Origin: an uncultured Campylobacterales bacterium | GTDB lineage: Bacteria; Campylobacterota; Campylobacteria; Campylobacterales; Arcobacteraceae | DNA length: 64,000 nucleotides | Direction: 5' to 3' | NCBI GenBank assembly: GCA_947494995.1 | Contig: CANLWY010000001.1 | Coordinates: 248,001 to 312,000, forward strand | Shown: one piece after another, positions 9,644 through 18,559 of the stretch | Layout of the letters: each line of letters starts with the position of its first letter | Position numbering within the stretch: the first letter of the stretch is position 1 | Notes under the pieces: generated by a model | What the model saw: only the letters and a program-made list of their open reading frames with translations | Told to the model about the DNA's origin: nothing | Databases searched by the model: none | Program-made: the position numbers and the translations under genes

Positions 9644-12049
9644 ATGAATAATTCAAGAAGAGACTTTCTTAAGAAAGGTGCACTTGGAACTGCAGCAATC
9701 GCAGCAAGTGGTACGTTAAGTGGTGCAGCAGCAAAAGAGTTCGCTGCAAGAACTAAAAAGATCCCGCATGCGTCACACTTTGGTCCATTTCATGCACATG
9801 TAAGAGATGGGAAAGTTGTTGACATTACTCCTCAACTTGATTCTGATGCAAATCCTACTATTATGGTAAAAGGTTTAGCTGATAGAATGTATACACCTAA
9901 TAGAGTAAAATACCCTGTAGTAAGAAAATCATACTTAGAAGGAAAAGGTAGAGGTGATTTAAGAGGTAAAGAAGAGTTTGTTAGAGTTTCATGGGATGAA
10001 GCTTTAGACTTAGCTTCTAAAGCTATTAAAAAAGCTCAAGCTAAAGGTGGAAATAAAGCACTTTATAACTCTGCATATTCTGGATGGGCACACCCAGGTG
10101 CTTTTAAACCAAATGCTTTAGCCGGAAGATTCTTTAATCAAATTGGTGGTGCTGTTGGTACTGCTGGTGAGTATTCAAATGGTGCGGCAGGTCCAACTAA
10201 CCCAGTTATTGTTGGAGATATGGAAGTTTATTCTATTCAAACTGCACATAAGCAAATAATTGAAAATACAAAAGTTATGATTTTATGGGGAGCTGATTTA
10301 TATAAAACTAATAGAATTGGTTGGGCTGTACCAAATCATAGAAATATTGATGCTTATGAAGAGTATAAAAAAGCTGGAATTAAATTTATCTCAATTGATC
10401 CAATTTATACACAATCTGCGCAAGAGTTTAAAGCTGATTGGGTAAAAGTTAGACCTGGTTCTGATGTTGCATTAATGTTAGGTATGATGAACTATCTTTA
10501 TAAATCAAAAAAATATGACAGTAAATTTATCAAGAAATATACTTATGGATTTGATAAGTTCTTACCTTACCTTTTAGGTAAAACTGATGGTATTGATAAA
10601 ACTGTTGAGTGGGCATCTAAATTATCAGAAGTTCCAGCAGAAAAAATCAAAGAAATTGCAGATATTATGGTTGATAATAGAACTTTCATTGCTGGTAACT
10701 GGGCAATGCAAAGAGCACATCATGGTGAGCAAGTTGACTGGACAATTATTACATTAGCTTCAATGGTGGGGCAAGTAGGTCTTCCAGGTGGAGGTTTTGG
10801 TTTTTCAATGCATTATGCAGGTGGTGGTGATGCAAACTCTGGAAAAACTACTGTTGGTGGAATGAGCCAAGGTGGTGGAAACAAAGTTAATATTAATATT
10901 CCAGCATCAAGAATGAGTGATTTAATTAATAATCCTGGTAAAACTGTTACTTTTAAAGGTGCAAAAGTTACCTATCCTAAAGTTGAAGTAATGTTTTGTA
11001 CAGGTTCTTCTCCAATTGGGCACCAACCAGATGTAAATGAGTTAGTTGAAGCAATGAGAACTCTTGACACAATTATTACAGTTGATCCATGGTGGACTCC
11101 AACAGCAAAAATGTCAGATATTGTTTTCCCTGCGACAAATACTATGGAAAGAGATGATATTACATCTGGTATGTCTTACTCTCAAGATAGAATCTTTGCA
11201 ATGAAAAAAGTTGTAGAACCTAAATATGAATCAAAAGATGATTATGAAATTTTTGCAGAATTAGCTGGAAGATTTGGTAAAAAGAAAAAATTTACTAGAG
11301 GTAGAACAGCATTACAATGGATTGAAAGATTATATAAAAGATCAAGTGCAGCTAAAGAGATGAAAATTTCATTTAAAGAGTTCTGGGAAAAAGGTGTTAT
11401 TAAATATGATATTCCAGCAGAAGCTCATAATTATGTAAGACATGAAGCGTTTAGAAAAGATCCAGTTAATAATCCTCTAAAAACAGAGACTGGTAAAATT
11501 CAAATTTTCTCTGATAAATTTGCAAGTTTTGGATATGAAGATTTTAAAGGTCATCCTATTTGGAGAGAACCAGCTGAGTGGTTAGGTTCTAAAGAAGCTA
11601 AAAAATTCCCATTACACTTAGTATCTCCTCATCCAACATATAGAGTTCACTCTCAGTTAGATAATACTTGGGTACAAAATGTACATAAAGTACAAGGAAG
11701 AGAGCCAATTAGAATTTCTCCAAATGATGCTAAGAAGTTTGGTGTGAAAGATGGTGAAGTTGTAGAAGTTTATAATGACAGAGGAAGTTTACTTGCTGGT
11801 GTTGTTGTAACAAATACAATTAGAGATGGCGTTGTTGCAATTGAAGAGGGAGCATGGTACTCTCCTGAAGATGCAAATAAAAAGAATACAAGATGTAATT
11901 CTGGACAAGCAAACTTATTAACTTCGTCTAGACCAACATCTTCAATGGCACAAGCAACTACTGCAAATACTTGTTTAGTGTCAATTAGAAAAGCTGGAAC
12001 AGTTAAACCAAATATGGCTTATCAACCACCAGTAATTATAGGAGCTTAA
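9644..12049 (+). CDS. torA: Periplasmic TMAO/DMSO reductase, molybdenum enzyme
   Basis: Reduces trimethylamine N-oxide (and possibly S-oxides) as a respiratory electron acceptor. It has 801 residues with a Tat signal at the start (SRRDFLKKGALG). There is no N-terminal iron-sulfur motif, as expected for TorA/BisC-type enzymes. The Mo ligand is the serine at about position 178 (GEYSNGAAG), and similarity to E. coli TorA runs along the whole chain (GQVGLPGGGFGF, HSQLDNTW). A cytochrome c gene follows after two bases, the same arrangement as Campylobacter jejuni Cj0264c-Cj0265c. The preferred substrate cannot be fixed from sequence. Confidence 0.92.
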   Translation: MNNSRRDFLKKGALGTAAIAASGTLSGAAAKEFAARTKKIPHASHFGPFHAHVRDGKVVDITPQLDSDANPTIMVKGLADRMYTPNRVKYPVVRKSYLEGKGRGDLRGKEEFVRVSWDEALDLASKAIKKAQAKGGNKALYNSAYSGWAHPGAFKPNALAGRFFNQIGGAVGTAGEYSNGAAGPTNPVIVGDMEVYSIQTAHKQIIENTKVMILWGADLYKTNRIGWAVPNHRNIDAYEEYKKAGIKFISIDPIYTQSAQEFKADWVKVRPGSDVALMLGMMNYLYKSKKYDSKFIKKYTYGFDKFLPYLLGKTDGIDKTVEWASKLSEVPAEKIKEIADIMVDNRTFIAGNWAMQRAHHGEQVDWTIITLASMVGQVGLPGGGFGFSMHYAGGGDANSGKTTVGGMSQGGGNKVNINIPASRMSDLINNPGKTVTFKGAKVTYPKVEVMFCTGSSPIGHQPDVNELVEAMRTLDTIITVDPWWTPTAKMSDIVFPATNTMERDDITSGMSYSQDRIFAMKKVVEPKYESKDDYEIFAELAGRFGKKKKFTRGRTALQWIERLYKRSSAAKEMKISFKEFWEKGVIKYDIPAEAHNYVRHEAFRKDPVNNPLKTETGKIQIFSDKFASFGYEDFKGHPIWREPAEWLGSKEAKKFPLHLVSPHPTYRVHSQLDNTWVQNVHKVQGREPIRISPNDAKKFGVKDGEVVEVYNDRGSLLAGVVVTNTIRDGVVAIEEGAWYSPEDANKKNTRCNSGQANLLTSSRPTSSMAQATTANTCLVSIRKAGTVKPNMAYQPPVIIGA

Positions 12050-12051
12050 TA

Positions 12052-12609
12052 ATGAAAGGTTTAATTAAATTTATAGCTTCTTTTGCACTTTTACTTGGGT
12101 TTTTTACCCAAGTAAATGCAGAAGAATTATATGTATTTCAAGATGCACAATTGAAAGCAGATAATGGAAAAAGTGCAAAGGTATTTTTAGGTGTTCCTGT
12201 TAAAGTTAAAAAAGATGGAGAAACTAGTGCAAAAGTTTCTATTCATGGTTTTTTAGATGGAACAAATGTATATTCAACAGCATCTAAAGAGCTTTTAATT
12301 GCTACTTTAGAAAAAGGTTTTAAAGTTAAAACTATCAAAGGTAATGAAGTAGAATTACTTGGTTCTATTGAGAAAGAGTCTTTAACTGAAAATGGAGCAG
12401 AAGTATGGGAAGAGCATGAAGAGTTTTTCTATGAAATGTGTACTCAATGCCATGCAGCACAAGCACCAACTCATCATACAATGATTGAATGGGAAGCTTT
12501 AATGTTACCAATGAAAGGTTTTGCAAAACTTGATGATGAAGAGAATGAGTATTTATTAAGATACTTAAAATCAAATGCCTCAAATGGATTAATGAAAGTA
12601 AAACATTAG
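12052..12609 (+). CDS. Monohaem cytochrome c, electron donor to TorA
   Basis: A 185-residue exported protein with a signal peptide (about 1-23, ending NAEE) and one haem motif, CTQCH, at 130-134 in the C-terminal part. The N-terminal part (24-110) is a beta-rich region seen in the C. jejuni Cj0265c type. It starts two bases after the torA stop, so it is co-expressed and most likely passes electrons to TorA from the quinol pool. It lacks the pentahaem NapC-like domain of E. coli TorC. Confidence 0.85.
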   Translation: MKGLIKFIASFALLLGFFTQVNAEELYVFQDAQLKADNGKSAKVFLGVPVKVKKDGETSAKVSIHGFLDGTNVYSTASKELLIATLEKGFKVKTIKGNEVELLGSIEKESLTENGAEVWEEHEEFFYEMCTQCHAAQAPTHHTMIEWEALMLPMKGFAKLDDEENEYLLRYLKSNASNGLMKVKH

Positions 12610-12652
12610 TAGTTAAAAAAAAATAGTATATAATAAAAGAAAAGGAGTTGTT

Positions 12653-13339
12653 ATGAATAAAGAGTTCTATGACAAGTTAAAAAACATGACAATTCTATAT
12701 GCTGAGGATGAGGTTGGGATAAGAGAGAATATTGCTGATTCTTTAAAGTATTATGTTAAGGACGTTTTTGAAGCCTCTGATGGAGAGGAAGCATATCAGA
12801 TATATGAAGAAGAGTCACCTGATATCATTCTAAGTGATATTCATATGCCAAAGGTAAATGGTATTGAATTAGTAAAAAAAATTAGAAGTAAAAATAGAGA
12901 TGTCCCTGTTGTAATGATAACTGCTCATACTGATAAAGAGTATCTTTTAGAAGCAGTTGAGTTACATATGGAAAAATATATAGTAAAACCAGTTGATTTA
13001 GATGAATTGTTTGAAACTTTAGAAAAGTGTGTGAATGTGTTAGATTCAAACAGAAAAGTTTTACTAAAAGTTGATGAAAACTATATGTATGATTATGATG
13101 CAAAAGAGTTGAAATATAAAGATGAAATGGTTATCTTGAATAAAAAAGAGATGATGTTTCTAGAGGTATTAATCTCTAATCAAAATAGAGTTGTAAACTA
13201 TGATGAATTACAAGATAAAGTTTGGGGTGATGATGTCATGACAGATAGTGCGCTTCGCTCACTTGTTAGAAATCTTAGAAAAAAGCTACCTACAGATATA
13301 ATATTTAATTTGTCTGGTGTGGGGTATAGACTTGTGTAG
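12653..13339 (+). CDS. OmpR-family response regulator, likely controller of the tor genes
   Basis: A 228-residue regulator. The receiver domain (12-128) has an acidic pocket (ED around 18-19), phosphorylation site D62 (LSDIHMP) and K112 (VKP). The OmpR/PhoB winged helix is at about 135-228 and ends GVGYRLV. AAGGAG precedes the ATG. It forms an overlapping unit with a periplasmic binding protein and a histidine kinase. By position it should regulate torA, like TorR in Enterobacteria. The 11-base direct repeats at the torA and porin promoters are candidate sites. Confidence 0.85.
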   Translation: MNKEFYDKLKNMTILYAEDEVGIRENIADSLKYYVKDVFEASDGEEAYQIYEEESPDIILSDIHMPKVNGIELVKKIRSKNRDVPVVMITAHTDKEYLLEAVELHMEKYIVKPVDLDELFETLEKCVNVLDSNRKVLLKVDENYMYDYDAKELKYKDEMVILNKKEMMFLEVLISNQNRVVNYDELQDKVWGDDVMTDSALRSLVRNLRKKLPTDIIFNLSGVGYRLV

Positions 13340-14972
13340 AATTTTATTTTTTATATTTCTATCTTATTTTTTATTAAATGCAAGTAGCTTTAGAGTTGAT
13401 GATTCTAAAGCACGGCTTGCAATGCCATTAAATACAAAATCTCATATAAAAGTGTTTTTGCCTTCTATTCCTTATTCTTATATCTCAAAAAATACAAATT
13501 CAGGTCTTATTCGTTCAACTGATAATGAAAAAAATTGGGAATATGATTTAGCAAAGTCACATACAAGAGTAGATGATCTAACTTATGTCTTTGAGATAAG
13601 AAGAGATTTAAAGTTTCAAGATGGAACAGATTTTACAATTGATAATGTAATAAGAAATTTAGAAAATTTTAGAAAATATCCTCTTTTATATACTAATATT
13701 GATAAAGTAAATTTTAGTATCGAAAGAGTAGATGATTATAGAATAAAAATAAAACTTGATAAAAAATATGAAATGTTTTTCCTTGATCTAGCAAGGGTGT
13801 ACTTTTATACAGATGAGTATTTAGAAAAGTATACTCCAAAAGGTGCTCAAACAGGAAGTGCAAATAGAATTCCAGGCCCATATGCAATGGGGCCATATAT
13901 TCTTGAAAGTGGATATGCTGTTGGAGAAAAGCAAACAGATAAGCTTGAGCTTATTGCAAACCCATATTATTGGGACAAAAGATATCCAAAGATTAAAAGA
14001 GTTACTGTATATACTCAACTTGATGTATCAAAAGCACTTAATTTTATAAAAAATCATGAGGGAAGGCTAGATATTATGCCAATACCTTTTAATAAAAAGA
14101 TTGATATTTTGATGTCAAAATATTCAAAGTTAGTTATAAAGAAGTCTACAAATAATTTTACAATATTTTTTAATCTAATAAATGGAAATAAGACTTTAGA
14201 AAATGATGAGGTAAGAATTGCTTTAAATGAGGCTATAAACCAAGAGAATCTACTTAATTTTGTTTATAAAAAGGAAGGAAGAATATCGCCTTTTTCAACT
14301 TCAATAAATTATAAAATAGTTGATAAAATAGCAAAGAAAAATAAGTATACAAAGTTTAATTTTAGTGAAGAGAAAAAGAAGAATCTTTTAAATGGACTAG
14401 AGTTGAATGTTTTTACTCAAGATAGGTTTATATTTTTATTTAAGGGAATAGAGTATCAGCTTAAAAAATATGGAGTAAAATTGAATTATACAATAACTAC
14501 AAGTGAAAAAGATATATATGAACAGTTATTAAACACAAGGAGTTCAAAAAATTCTAAAGAATGGGATCTTCTCATGTGGGGAAATGATGACTGGTATTAT
14601 CAAAATCCTTGGACAATGTTTTTTATTTATGAAAATGATTCCCCTTGGTCAACTATTAAAAATGATAAATATATGGATAAATATATAAAGAAGTTTTTTG
14701 AGACAAAAGTAGGAACAAGAGAGTATGAACAAATAGTGGAAAATATTTTAAATAGAGCTAGGAATAAAGCATATACTCTTAGAGTTCCTTCTCATAATAA
14801 GGTCATGGCTGTAAATAAAGAAGTAGTTTTTGAACCATATATTGGTGGACTTATCCCCTTGTGGAAAGTAGAGATTACAAGAGACCATTGGTCTTTGAGA
14901 GAAAAAGAGTATTTAAAGGAGTTTTATTCTCCAATAAAAACACAAAGAATTAAAAATGAACTTGATAAATAA
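13317..14972 (+). CDS. Periplasmic family-5 solute-binding protein, probable sensor partner
   Basis: A protein of about 550 residues of the SBP_bac_5 (DppA/OppA/NikA) fold, with a short hydrophobic signal segment (CRILFFIFLSYFLLNAS). No permease or ATPase genes are nearby. It overlaps the response regulator upstream and the kinase downstream. The start is unresolved: the open frame begins with a GTG at 13317, but a TTG at 13332, eight bases after GGGG, also fits and gives a compact signal peptide. The genes around it suggest it senses a ligand for the kinase, a role TorT plays with an unrelated fold in E. coli. Confidence 0.75.
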   Translation: MWGIDLCRILFFIFLSYFLLNASSFRVDDSKARLAMPLNTKSHIKVFLPSIPYSYISKNTNSGLIRSTDNEKNWEYDLAKSHTRVDDLTYVFEIRRDLKFQDGTDFTIDNVIRNLENFRKYPLLYTNIDKVNFSIERVDDYRIKIKLDKKYEMFFLDLARVYFYTDEYLEKYTPKGAQTGSANRIPGPYAMGPYILESGYAVGEKQTDKLELIANPYYWDKRYPKIKRVTVYTQLDVSKALNFIKNHEGRLDIMPIPFNKKIDILMSKYSKLVIKKSTNNFTIFFNLINGNKTLENDEVRIALNEAINQENLLNFVYKKEGRISPFSTSINYKIVDKIAKKNKYTKFNFSEEKKKNLLNGLELNVFTQDRFIFLFKGIEYQLKKYGVKLNYTITTSEKDIYEQLLNTRSSKNSKEWDLLMWGNDDWYYQNPWTMFFIYENDSPWSTIKNDKYMDKYIKKFFETKVGTREYEQIVENILNRARNKAYTLRVPSHNKVMAVNKEVVFEPYIGGLIPLWKVEITRDHWSLREKEYLKEFYSPIKTQRIKNELDK

Positions 14973-16620
14973 TATAAATATTAAAGTAAAGTTAGGCTTA
15001 TTATTCCTTGTTTTATGTATTTCAATAGCAGTATTGGCATATAAGTCTATAAACATTAGTGAATATAATAAACAAACTTTAAAAGAAGTACATAGTAAGT
15101 CTCAAACTGTATTGAATATGCAAGACAAAATCATAACACCTTTGTATAGATTAAGAGAATTGACTCAATCTTTAGTGATGGCTCCAAATAGTAAAATAAG
15201 AGTTTCTATTCAAGAAAAAATGAGTATTTTATCTTTAACATTAGAGCAAGAGTTTAAAAAGCTTGAGAGAAATAAAATTATTAAAGAATGGAATAGTTAT
15301 AAGGATGCAATAAACGTTACAAGAAGTTATCTAGATGAGGGATTTGAAGAGGGAGCATATATTAATGTAACAACTTCAAGTACTGAACAGTTTAATATAC
15401 TTTTAGAAGAGCTTCTAAAGGTTCAGAGCAGTTTTTTAAATAATTCTACAATTGCTTATGGAAAAGCATCTACAGAAGCTAGAGATATTAAACTTGAAGT
15501 TTTAATAGTTATTATAGTTGTTCTTATTTTAGCTACATTTATTGGATGGTTAATAACAGGTAATATAATAAACTCAATACATACTGTTCAACAAGGTTTA
15601 TCAAACTTTTTTGAGTATTTAAATAATAGAAAAGATGATGTTCAGAAAATTGAGATTAATTCAAAAGATGAGTTTTATCAAATGGCAAAAATGATTAATC
15701 AAAATGTTTCAACTATTCAAAAGAGTATTAAACAAAATGAAGAGTTAATTAAAAATGCTACAAAAGTTTTAGAAGATTTAAAAGGTGGAGATTTAAGTTC
15801 AAGGTTAACTAAAGAGAGTAATAATGATGCCTTAAATGAATTAAAAGTAATGATGAATAATATGATTGATAATCTTGAGTTTCAGATTCAAGAGCAGATT
15901 TATAAAAGGTTGGAACAAGAGCAAATCTTAATACAACAAAGTAAACTAGCTTCAATGGGGGAGATGATTGGTAATATTGCTCATCAATGGAGACAACCCT
16001 TAGCACAAATATCAGCAATTCATATGAATATGAAAGTTACATATGATTTTGATAAGTTTACAAAAGAGTATTTAGATACAAAAATAAAAGAGGCAAATAC
16101 TCTTACAAATTATATGTCTCAAACAATTTCAGATTTTCAAAACTTTTTTAAACCCCAAGGAGAAAAAGAGGAGTTTTCAGTAGAAAAAGCTTGTAGAGAC
16201 TCTTATTTTATTTTAGAGTCTTCTCTAAAGTATCATGGTATAAGTTTAAATTTTGATGTAAAAGAAGATTCTGTTGTGTATGGATATAAAAATGAGTATT
16301 CTCAAGTGATACTAAATGTTTTAAGTAATGCAAAAGATATTTTAATAGAGAGAGTAATTAAAAATCCAGAGATAAATATAGAAATAAAAACCGGAGATAA
16401 TTTTGCAATTGTTAAAATTCAAGACAATGCAGGAGGAATAAAAGAGGATATAATTGAAAAGGTTTTTGATCCTTATTTTACAACAAGACATAAAACTCAA
16501 GGCACAGGAATAGGACTATATATGGCTAAAAATATAATTGAAAGAAATATGAGTGGTTTTATAAATGTGCGAAACCAAAATGATGGTGCAATATTTACTA
16601 TTAAAGTAAAAAAGAAATAA
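14956..16620 (+). CDS. Membrane sensor histidine kinase, partner of the tor-linked regulator
   Basis: A 554-residue kinase. There is a transmembrane helix at about 13-30, a helical periplasmic domain (31-178), a second helix at about 180-201, a linker and coiled coil, the H-box with H343 (GNIAHQWRQPLAQ), then the HATPase domain with N, G1 (DNAGGI) and G2 (GTGIGLYM) boxes. The helical periplasmic domain resembles TorS-like four-helix sensors. The ATG lies 17 bases inside the end of the binding-protein gene, so the three genes form one translation-coupled unit. Confidence 0.85.
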   Translation: MNLINNINIKVKLGLLFLVLCISIAVLAYKSINISEYNKQTLKEVHSKSQTVLNMQDKIITPLYRLRELTQSLVMAPNSKIRVSIQEKMSILSLTLEQEFKKLERNKIIKEWNSYKDAINVTRSYLDEGFEEGAYINVTTSSTEQFNILLEELLKVQSSFLNNSTIAYGKASTEARDIKLEVLIVIIVVLILATFIGWLITGNIINSIHTVQQGLSNFFEYLNNRKDDVQKIEINSKDEFYQMAKMINQNVSTIQKSIKQNEELIKNATKVLEDLKGGDLSSRLTKESNNDALNELKVMMNNMIDNLEFQIQEQIYKRLEQEQILIQQSKLASMGEMIGNIAHQWRQPLAQISAIHMNMKVTYDFDKFTKEYLDTKIKEANTLTNYMSQTISDFQNFFKPQGEKEEFSVEKACRDSYFILESSLKYHGISLNFDVKEDSVVYGYKNEYSQVILNVLSNAKDILIERVIKNPEINIEIKTGDNFAIVKIQDNAGGIKEDIIEKVFDPYFTTRHKTQGTGIGLYMAKNIIERNMSGFINVRNQNDGAIFTIKVKKK

Positions 16621-16671: not shown

Positions 16672-17172
16672 ATGCCACAAGAAAAAAACTTAAAGAACAA
16701 AATTTTAGATTATATTTATATTCTTTCAAAGCAACCAATTCTTCTAAGAGACTTATTAGAAGCTAATAGACAGTATAATGAAGGAATGCATGTAGACCCT
16801 GCAAAACTAGGCTTTAGATTAAAGTTAAGAAATGCATACCTTGTATATATAGCAATAGTTTTAGCAATATTAATTCCAATAACTGCAATTACTCATAAAG
16901 CTTTGGCTGGTATTGATTCCCATGTTTCTATTCTTGGAGCAATGGTTATAACTGCTTCTATTTTTATTGGATTTAATTTTTTTAGAGCAAAAATGAGAGA
17001 TGAAATTTCTCTAAGACAAATTAAAAAGTCATGGCAATTAAGATTTCCTTATTTTTCTTATGCAGAATATAATAAAAAAGTAGAAGAGATATATTTACAA
17101 TCTTTAAAAGAAGAGATTTCAAAGAAAGAATTAGAAAAATACATTTTAGATAATCTTGTTATAGAAGAGTAA
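16672..17172 (+). CDS. Small membrane protein of unknown function
   Basis: A 166-residue protein I do not recognise. It has a basic, soluble N-terminal part, two hydrophobic segments (about 59-76 and 86-103), then a charged C-terminal helix-rich tail ending in EE. It has a weak ribosome-binding site. It stands alone after the sensor kinase and converges on a Kunitz-type lipoprotein gene four bases away. Codon use is like its neighbours. Confidence 0.6.
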   Translation: MPQEKNLKNKILDYIYILSKQPILLRDLLEANRQYNEGMHVDPAKLGFRLKLRNAYLVYIAIVLAILIPITAITHKALAGIDSHVSILGAMVITASIFIGFNFFRAKMRDEISLRQIKKSWQLRFPYFSYAEYNKKVEEIYLQSLKEEISKKELEKYILDNLVIEE

Positions 17173-17185
17173 TCCTCTACTCTTC
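17164..17185. terminator. Shared hairpin across two convergent stop codons
   Basis: GAAGAGTA (17164-17171) pairs perfectly with TACTCTTC (17178-17185). It lies in the last codons of both convergent genes, and each protein ends in glutamate-glutamate encoded by this stem. There is no clear T-run. Confidence 0.45.
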
Positions 17186-17413
17186 ACAAGTTTGTTTACA
17201 CTCTTTTAGTGTATGAAAAGCAACCTCTCCACAACCTCCATAAATATATGATTCACACTTATTACTTTTTTGATTGAAATAATACTTTTTAAAATAGGCT
17301 TTGCACATACCTATATTGGCTTTTTGGTAACATTTATTTGGCAATTTATTATTTTTACTACAGCCAATAAATAAAAGTGTGAAAAAAATAATAGAAATGG
17401 TTTTAAAAAACAT
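17177..17413 (-). CDS. Kunitz/BPTI-type protease inhibitor lipoprotein
   Basis: A 78-residue protein. Residues 1-17 are a signal sequence ending in a lipobox (FIGC), so C18 is the lipidated cysteine. The rest is a complete Kunitz domain: cysteines 28, 37, 53, 61, 72 and 76 have the BPTI spacing (8, 15, 7, then 10 instead of 12, then 3). YGGC is conserved, and F65 matches BPTI F45. The expected disulfides are 28-76, 37-61 and 53-72. The residue after C37, the P1 position, is lysine followed by alanine, as in BPTI, which predicts inhibition of trypsin-like proteases. The domain is common in animals and rare in bacteria. Function here is inferred. Confidence 0.85.
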   Translation of the reverse strand: MFFKTISIIFFTLLFIGCSKNNKLPNKCYQKANIGMCKAYFKKYYFNQKSNKCESYIYGGCGEVAFHTLKECKQTCEE

Positions 17414-17479
17414 AATAATTCCTTAATTATAAAGTTATAAAATTGTACAATAAATAACATTAGCATAAATTGGATATTA

Positions 17480-18559
17480 ATGAACTTTGAAAAATTTGAT
17501 TCAGGTAATCACTTTAGTCTAGGTTTAGAGTTAGAACTACGAATTTTAGACAGATTTGATTTGACACTAAGAAATGAGTTTGATTATATATTAGAGAATT
17601 TAAACGATGAGTATAAGCAAAGACTTGCAAAGGAGTTTTTAGGCTCAATGATTGAGATAAATACTCCAGTTTTTCATTGTGAAAGAGATTTAATTGAATT
17701 TCTAAAAGAAATTATAAATGAACTTATGGTTATTGCTTCTAAAAAAAATCTTTGCTTACAAACAAGTGGTACCTTTTCACAGGAAAATTTAAATATAAAA
17801 ATCAACTCAAATGACAGATATGAAAAACTTTATGAAGAACATGCAATATTATTAGATAATTTTACTATATGTGGAACACACGTACATATAGGTTTTGAAA
17901 CATTTGAAAAAGCTTTAAAAGCTTATAATTACTCAATATATTATCTCCCTTTACTTATAGCATTAAATGCATCTTCTTTATTTTATAATGGAAAAAATAC
18001 TGGTATCCATTCATATAGAACAAAAATTTTTGAGAGGTTACCAAAAGCATCTCTTCCTGAATATTTTGATACTTATGAAGATATGAAAGCTTTGTATGAT
18101 TTATTAGAGAAGTCAAAAGTAATAAAGTCTGCAAAAGATATTTGGTGGGATGTTAGAATACAACCCCATTTTAAGACACTTGAATTTAGAGTTTGTGATG
18201 CAGTAAATGATTTTGATAGACTTGAAGTGACTATCGCAATAGTTAAGTCAATTTGTCAGCTCTCTGAAATAGAAGCACCAACTAAAATGCCAATGCAGGT
18301 TTTAAAGCAAAATATGTGGAGTGCTACTAGATATTCTATGGAAGGTAAAATGGTAACCACATGTGGAGAACTTAAACCAGTTAGAGATATGTTAAAAACA
18401 CTTATTTCAAAAGCTTATAAGAACTCTTTTCTGACAAAAGAGTTATATGAAAAATCTAAAAATATTATAGAAGAAAAATCAGTTTCTCAAAAGATGATAG
18501 AAGTATATGAAAGAACAAATAGTTTAAAAGAAATAGAACGATTAGGAGTATTTGAATGA
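17480..18559 (+). CDS. GCS2-family glutamate-cysteine ligase-like protein (YbdK type)
   Basis: A 359-residue ATP-dependent carboxylate-amine ligase. The family motifs are LGLELELRILD at the start, GTHVHIGF in the centre and TLEFRVCDA towards the end. YbdK-type members join glutamate to an amine, sometimes cysteine, giving gamma-glutamyl products. The stop overlaps the start of the following gamma-glutamyltransferase gene (ATGA), so the two act together. No glutathione synthetase is visible nearby, so the product need not be a glutathione precursor. Confidence 0.82.
   Translation: MNFEKFDSGNHFSLGLELELRILDRFDLTLRNEFDYILENLNDEYKQRLAKEFLGSMIEINTPVFHCERDLIEFLKEIINELMVIASKKNLCLQTSGTFSQENLNIKINSNDRYEKLYEEHAILLDNFTICGTHVHIGFETFEKALKAYNYSIYYLPLLIALNASSLFYNGKNTGIHSYRTKIFERLPKASLPEYFDTYEDMKALYDLLEKSKVIKSAKDIWWDVRIQPHFKTLEFRVCDAVNDFDRLEVTIAIVKSICQLSEIEAPTKMPMQVLKQNMWSATRYSMEGKMVTTCGELKPVRDMLKTLISKAYKNSFLTKELYEKSKNIIEEKSVSQKMIEVYERTNSLKEIERLGVFE

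Follow-up and report, generated by a model that had tools for sequence, protein, structure and literature searches.

The Kunitz gene and its surroundings

The gene considered here occupies positions 17177..17413 on the reverse strand of the window, i.e., of the whole 64-kb stretch of DNA analysed, and its translated open reading frame, 78 amino acids long, matches the Kunitz/BPTI profile PF00014 with 43.7 bits. Six bases before the ATG, a possible ribosome-binding site, AAGGA, can be seen by eye (17420..17424, reverse strand). The reading frame is as the initial annotation described it: residues 1–18 (17360..17413, reverse strand) match the pattern of a signal peptide, with the lipobox FIGC at its end and Cys18 followed by Ser19 at position +2. 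By the lipobox rule, FIGC is read as a signal for lipidation, which is predicted to occur on Cys18; by the Lol rule, serine at +2 predicts the outer membrane, where the lipoprotein would then be located.

The mature part of the protein is a Kunitz/BPTI domain, with a linker of nine residues preceding the six-cysteine domain at residues 28–76 (17186..17332, reverse strand), as delimited by the Pfam profile, the alignment, and the predicted model. The cysteines of the translated frame, spaced as C-x8-C-x15-C-x7-C-x10-C-x3-C, follow the BPTI-like order, and the gap between the fourth and the fifth, x12 in BPTI, is two residues shorter. This shortening had been reported before, and can now be refined, as relatives of the protein are short by one residue only. 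Between the equivalents of Cys38 and Phe45 of BPTI, the shortened loop comprises, by alignment count, four residues, GEVA (17219..17230, reverse strand). YGGC, the equivalent of Phe45, and Lys-Ala at P1–P1′, all named in the initial annotation, are present. The latter pair, Lys38-Ala39 (17297..17302, reverse strand), is where the binding loop is predicted to have its reactive bond, judging by the alignments and a residue count; we assume that the P1 numbering of BPTI can be taken over for this protein, and lysine at P1 would, as annotated, be of the trypsin type.

The base composition, formerly described as native, is near native but not identical: GC is 26.2% in the gene vs. 29.4% in the whole window, and GC3, calculated from only 79 codons, is 21.5% vs. 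the mean of 15.5% (sd 2.4) in 52 unfiltered window ORFs of 150 amino acids or more. A scan for promoters and terminators yielded roughly what chance would give, namely, five promoter-like sites with 4.7 expected, and no terminator.

Four bases separate the Kunitz gene from a convergent gene (16672..17172, forward strand) for a protein of 166 amino acids, by eye a membrane protein, with no Pfam family in the Pfam scan. The divergent neighbor (17480..18559, forward strand) encodes a GCS2-family carboxylate-amine ligase and is not part of the inhibitor. Upstream in coordinates lies a TMAO/DMSO-reductase-like cluster (9644–16620) with a molybdopterin enzyme, a protein with, by eye, a CxxCH motif, and also an OmpR-type regulator, a histidine kinase, and a family-5 solute-binding protein, which stands where, presumably, a TorT-like sensor is to be expected. 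A mobile-element origin of the gene was rejected, as no relative of the window protein was found in phages or viral contigs, and no relative of a family member in plasmids. A cognate neighboring protease was rejected as well: the sole match in a motif scan of loci L001–L121 was one HtrA-like ORF of the own genome, and the motif, being narrow, missed the other two HtrA-like ORFs there. The gene context, read by eye in 18 loci, looks different between phyla and is common to several Alcanivoracaceae loci.

Family assignment and distribution in the Arcobacteraceae

Membership in the Kunitz/BPTI family (PF00014, which we take to be MEROPS I2) was borne out by the profile search that had been named as its check: given E = 3.2e-11 and a score of 43.7 bits vs. 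the curated cut-off of 21, chance is excluded. This is the sole Pfam match of the protein up to E of 1, and thus Ecotin (PF03974) is not matched. None of 14 control genomes had PF00014 at the cut-off, with four weak matches at E ≤ 1 and none at E ≤ 0.001; a scan of five proteins against NCBIfam gave no match. In a phmmer search, 105 PDB sequences matched, SmCI, TFPI, and boophilin ranking highest and BPTI being among them. Among five structure models, constructed from 38 aligned bacterial domains, the best has a mean pLDDT of 82.7 (58.6–63.8 for the remaining four) and Z of 9.0 to BPTI (2hex), TFPI-K2 (1tfx), and textilinin-1 (3byb); the fold so predicted is the Kunitz fold. Due to the four loop residues and valine at the place of Asn43, the protein falls outside the animal-type long-loop subtype.

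PF00014 was found by profile search in 10 of the 104 Arcobacteraceae genomes, representing five of 20 genera, in eight of 398 genomes sampled from the order (six of these eight from the same family), and in seven of 397 genomes of a phylum sample that overlaps the order sample. The 166-residue neighbor, a homologue of which is present in 101 of the 104 genomes, adjoins the Kunitz gene in nine of the ten carriers, whereas in the tenth (G088) the gene lies at a contig end; the same locus recurs in genomes of four genera. The old residence proposed in the initial annotation agrees with this constancy of the neighbor, and a recent animal donor is not supported.

In the genus of the window, three of 16 genomes carry the gene, and a congener (G065) retains a decayed copy at the same spot, with the cysteines lost and GEVSFHTLK still readable. 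In the other 12, no copy was detected by the profile or by tblastn at the locus (one locus, L087, is cut by a contig end), the stretches behind the neighbor gene being read by eye in seven of them. The second loop deletion is seen in the window copy and the decayed one. The gene is dispensable, with no match in 94 of the 104 Arcobacteraceae genomes and decay in one congener. This distribution suggests to us that the gene has been inherited vertically at a single locus and lost repeatedly.

Two close pairs of relatives indicate purifying selection, with pN/pS of 0.079, resting on 11 changes (eight synonymous and three other), and 0.286. Over all 45 pairs, pN/pS reaches 0.83, synonymous sites being near saturation in many distant pairs; between the window protein and its nine relatives, it is 0.40–0.59, again with synonymous changes near saturation.

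Short-loop and long-loop domains in bacteria

When 84,980 species genomes were scanned using a bacterial alignment and two short patterns derived from ten sequences, at least 57 Kunitz loci in many phyla were recovered, the locus counts and phyla being lower bounds biased toward near relatives. The rarity in bacteria claimed earlier holds in part: carriers are few in the family and the order, yet loci turn up in many phyla. Domains were taken from 53 of the 57 loci (L024–L027 were omitted as lying on the same contigs as L014, L019, L018, and L016), from 11 further loci, and from the window. The extraction gave 41 rows of a short type, 50 long-type domains in 22 loci, and one other domain (L059); one locus, L080, a cut long-type fragment, did not parse. 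Dropping L037 and L040 as repeats of L021 and L023 left 39 short-type rows.

Between the equivalents of Cys38 and Phe45, the long type has six residues in 50 out of 50 domains, with Asn two residues before Phe in all 50, whereas the short type has five residues in 38 out of 39 rows and four in the window protein, with Val, Ile, or Leu at the place of Asn43 in all 39. As the types are defined by the loop length, these figures are descriptive; the informative observation is that a single parsed domain falls outside both. Among the 60 of 111 matches listed in a profile search of the PDB, many of them variants of few proteins, the printed ranges give the chain one residue more than the profile in 58, and the other two are BPTI precursors, six residues longer; in the 11 domain alignments printed, the extra residue falls in the Cys38–Phe45 loop. 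Judged by their sequences, the bacterial Kunitz domains found here are of two kinds, and the window protein belongs to the short-loop set, having lost one more residue.

The proteins carrying the domains differ as well. Each short-type locus has one Kunitz domain; the protein is 77–132 residues long in 31 out of 38 cases (longest start, the window protein uncounted), and a simple pattern finds a lipobox in 30 of the 39 rows. Long-type proteins have 164–2820 residues, some being cut by contig ends, and 12 of the 22 loci encode more than one Kunitz domain. Lys or Arg occupies P1 in 33 out of 39 short-type rows (Glu, Met, Phe, or Leu in the other six) vs. nine out of 50 long-type domains. One of the two scan patterns demands Lys or Arg at P1, and the contrast was therefore recounted on the P1-blind pattern, yielding 27 out of 33 for the short type and five out of 31 for the long type (Fisher p 2e-7, relatedness ignored); outside the Arcobacteraceae, this pattern gives Lys or Arg at P1 in 18 out of 24 short-type rows (Fisher p 2e-5, relatedness ignored). 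Gly12, a small residue at P1′ (Ala, Gly, or Ser), and [YWF]GG before Cys38 are kept in all 39 short-type rows. Gly12, P1′, and the GG pair are nearly as strict in the long type, mostly combined with other residues at P1; therefore, they alone provide no argument for trypsin inhibition, and the P1 contrast is the sharper sign of function.

Several variants were observed. In two other families of the order, a short-type domain is fused to a region at the C-terminal side that contains the KPAIYLYP motif and matches no Pfam family (L022:5419–6273 and L023:3654–4457). Kunitz domains also lie within ankyrin-repeat proteins (L047:5119–6171 and L059:5854–6882), the domain of L059 being the further variant outside both loop types. 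Among the nine short-type rows of Bacteroidota, eight have the last two cysteines separated by two residues instead of three, and some have further cysteines (the rows concerned are L030, L033, L034, L036, L042, L044, L050, and L052); in L050, Tyr replaces the first cysteine. Finally, the large long-type proteins of L058, L060, L073, L074, and L076 combine Kunitz domains with repeats that, by eye, look like Kazal domains.

Beyond Campylobacterota, and going by the titles of its loci, the short type occurs in Pseudomonadota (Alcanivorax, Neptuniibacter, and Thiohalocapsa), Bacteroidota, Spirochaetota, Fidelibacterota, and Thermodesulfobacteriota. Many of the sources are metagenome-assembled genomes, in which misplaced contigs are possible; named strains include Poseidonibacter lekithochrous A1R12, Alcanivorax limicola JB21, Neptuniibacter caesariensis MED92, Fibrisoma limi BUZ 3, and Croceivirga thetidis DJ-13.

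In a tree of 99 domains, ten of them animal, built from 45 columns with the loop columns omitted, the short and long types still largely separate, requiring four changes, and the window row groups with Arcobacteraceae rows. The tree is poorly resolved, with 48 of its 96 inner branches open and a bootstrap that had not settled. Four of the ten animal rows (TFPI K1 and K2, bikunin 1, and SmCI 3) stand among the short-type rows, the short row L046 is placed among the long-type rows, and a Neptuniibacter row lies inside the Arcobacteraceae. Trees with all short rows constrained together (AU 0.506) or all ten Arcobacteraceae rows constrained together (AU 0.801) are not rejected, which is no proof of either clade. 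The comparison of animal and bacterial members suggested earlier thus places the window protein among its bacterial relatives and agrees with an old bacterial residence, while giving neither the root nor the direction of transfer.

A wider reading is that, within the BPTI family, the short type is an ancient lineage of essentially bacterial nature, present in these five phyla and Campylobacterota, and that it generally protects the envelope from the trypsins of grazers, hosts, or rivals where ecotin is missing. We regard it as a tentative possibility, on the doubtful side; if true, the direction of transfer between bacteria and animals would be open, perhaps not from animal to bacterium.

Predicted function and comparison with known inhibitors

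In our opinion, the gene probably encodes an outer-membrane lipoprotein with one short-loop bacterial Kunitz domain, inhibiting trypsin-like, most likely foreign, proteases. The protein would be exported, then lipidated on Cys18, and then oxidized to three disulfides in the periplasm, the pairs of the Kunitz/BPTI family being 5–55, 14–38, and 30–51; DsbA- and DsbB-like genes are present in the own genome. By analogy with the family, the loop around Cys37-Lys38-Ala39 would enter and block the active site of a trypsin-like S1A protease. The latter, met at or inside the outer membrane, would most likely be foreign, such as the trypsins that protists or animals use in digestion or defense, or a protease made by a competitor. 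Ecotin (PF03974) was found in none of the 104 Arcobacteraceae genomes, E. coli being positive as the control. Combined, the evidence favors a putative envelope inhibitor aimed at foreign trypsin-like proteases, which would be ecotin-like in its working and is not an ecotin.

Points against inhibition include the shortened Cys38–Phe45 segment and the absence of Asn43, a core residue of BPTI, N43G being listed among the “crevice-forming” mutants; hence, the stability may be lower. Moreover, no other member of the short-loop set is as reduced as the window copy, and a congener has a decayed copy, so the window protein may be weak or eroding.

It is rather unlikely that the Kunitz fold has been kept without protease inhibition, as a binding or structural module of the envelope, even though some animal Kunitz toxins act on channels. 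The loop is shortened and Asn43 missing throughout the short type, six of its 39 rows lack Lys or Arg at P1, long-type domains with other P1 residues likewise retain Gly12, the small P1′, and GG, and the domain occurs also in an ankyrin-repeat protein; however, Lys or Arg is retained at P1 across phyla (27 out of 33 vs. five out of 31 in the long type). It also seems unlikely that the window copy is the remnant, now eroding, of a formerly functional inhibitor. Its further loop deletion, the loss of the P-F proline, the GEV-F-HTLK stretch shared with the cysteine-less G065 copy, and the lack of detected copies in 12 others among the 16 genomes of the genus fit erosion, while the six cysteines, the lipobox, P1–P1′, and the open frame are all intact, and pN/pS of 0.40–0.59 to the nine relatives, with synonymous changes near saturation, argues against it.

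Restraint of own periplasmic HtrA/DegP-type proteases is very unlikely. The own genome has three PF00089 matches, proteins of 355, 450, and 502 amino acids with GNSGG, presumably as in HtrA-type proteases, and none with GDSGG. For Campylobacter ecotins, PMC7773321 reports inhibition of elastase, factor Xa, and trypsin, but none of HtrA or DegP. PF00089 is matched in 93 of the 104 Arcobacteraceae genomes, both carriers of the Kunitz gene and non-carriers, and so does not track that gene. Finally, although Kunitz domains are found chiefly in animals, animal proteins give the best PDB sequence matches, and GC3 of the gene is somewhat above that of the window ORFs, recent acquisition from an animal host is most improbable, given the same locus in four genera, the grouping with other bacterial domains in the tree, and the loop being shorter than in the 60 (of 111) PDB chains listed.

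The preferred reading, that of an inhibitor, has bacterial precedents, the Campylobacter ecotins being one. A five-Kunitz protein is annotated in Acinetobacter baumannii, and according to PMC11511053, its domains KABP1 and KABP5 (both P1 Arg) inhibit factors XIa and Xa, KABP1 with Ki of 12.4 and 7.1 nM, respectively; KABP4 (P1 Arg) has weak anticoagulant activity, and KABP2 and KABP3 (P1 Leu) inhibit elastase. Thus, inhibition by bacterial Kunitz domains is not new in itself. KABP1 is described there as a mixed, not a classical competitive, inhibitor, and, taken as an analogy, does not cleanly support the standard mechanism. Literature searches, with most subscription journals outside their reach, found nothing joining Kunitz domains with Arcobacter or Epsilonproteobacteria, and nothing naming the short-loop set; “bacterial Kunitz” led to PMC11511053 alone, and Kunitz with Alcanivorax, to a tapeworm genome paper only. 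The short-loop lipoprotein branch is new, as far as these searches reach. A conserved lipid-anchored form of the trypsin type in unrelated bacteria would add a class of envelope inhibitors besides ecotin and serpins; for studies of folding, the domain would provide a naturally occurring BPTI relative whose core loop is shortened and lacks Asn43, and its existence in bacteria would reopen the question of the origin of Kunitz domains.

With the Kunitz/BPTI family, the window protein shares the six-cysteine pattern, the predicted fold, and the equivalents of Gly12, Lys15-Ala16, Y/W-G-G-C, and Phe45; it differs in having four instead of six residues between the Cys38 and Phe45 equivalents, no Asn43, and a bacterial lipobox. 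The long-loop bacterial domains and the A. baumannii protein are likewise bacterial, but the long-loop domains belong to larger, often multi-domain proteins, with Asn43 in 50 out of 50 and Lys or Arg at P1 in nine out of 50. Ecotin, as described in PMC7773321, is similarly an envelope-located inhibitor of foreign serine proteases in Gram-negative bacteria, including Campylobacter; it represents a different Pfam family, not found in any of the 104 Arcobacteraceae genomes, so the window protein would resemble it in its working and is no member.
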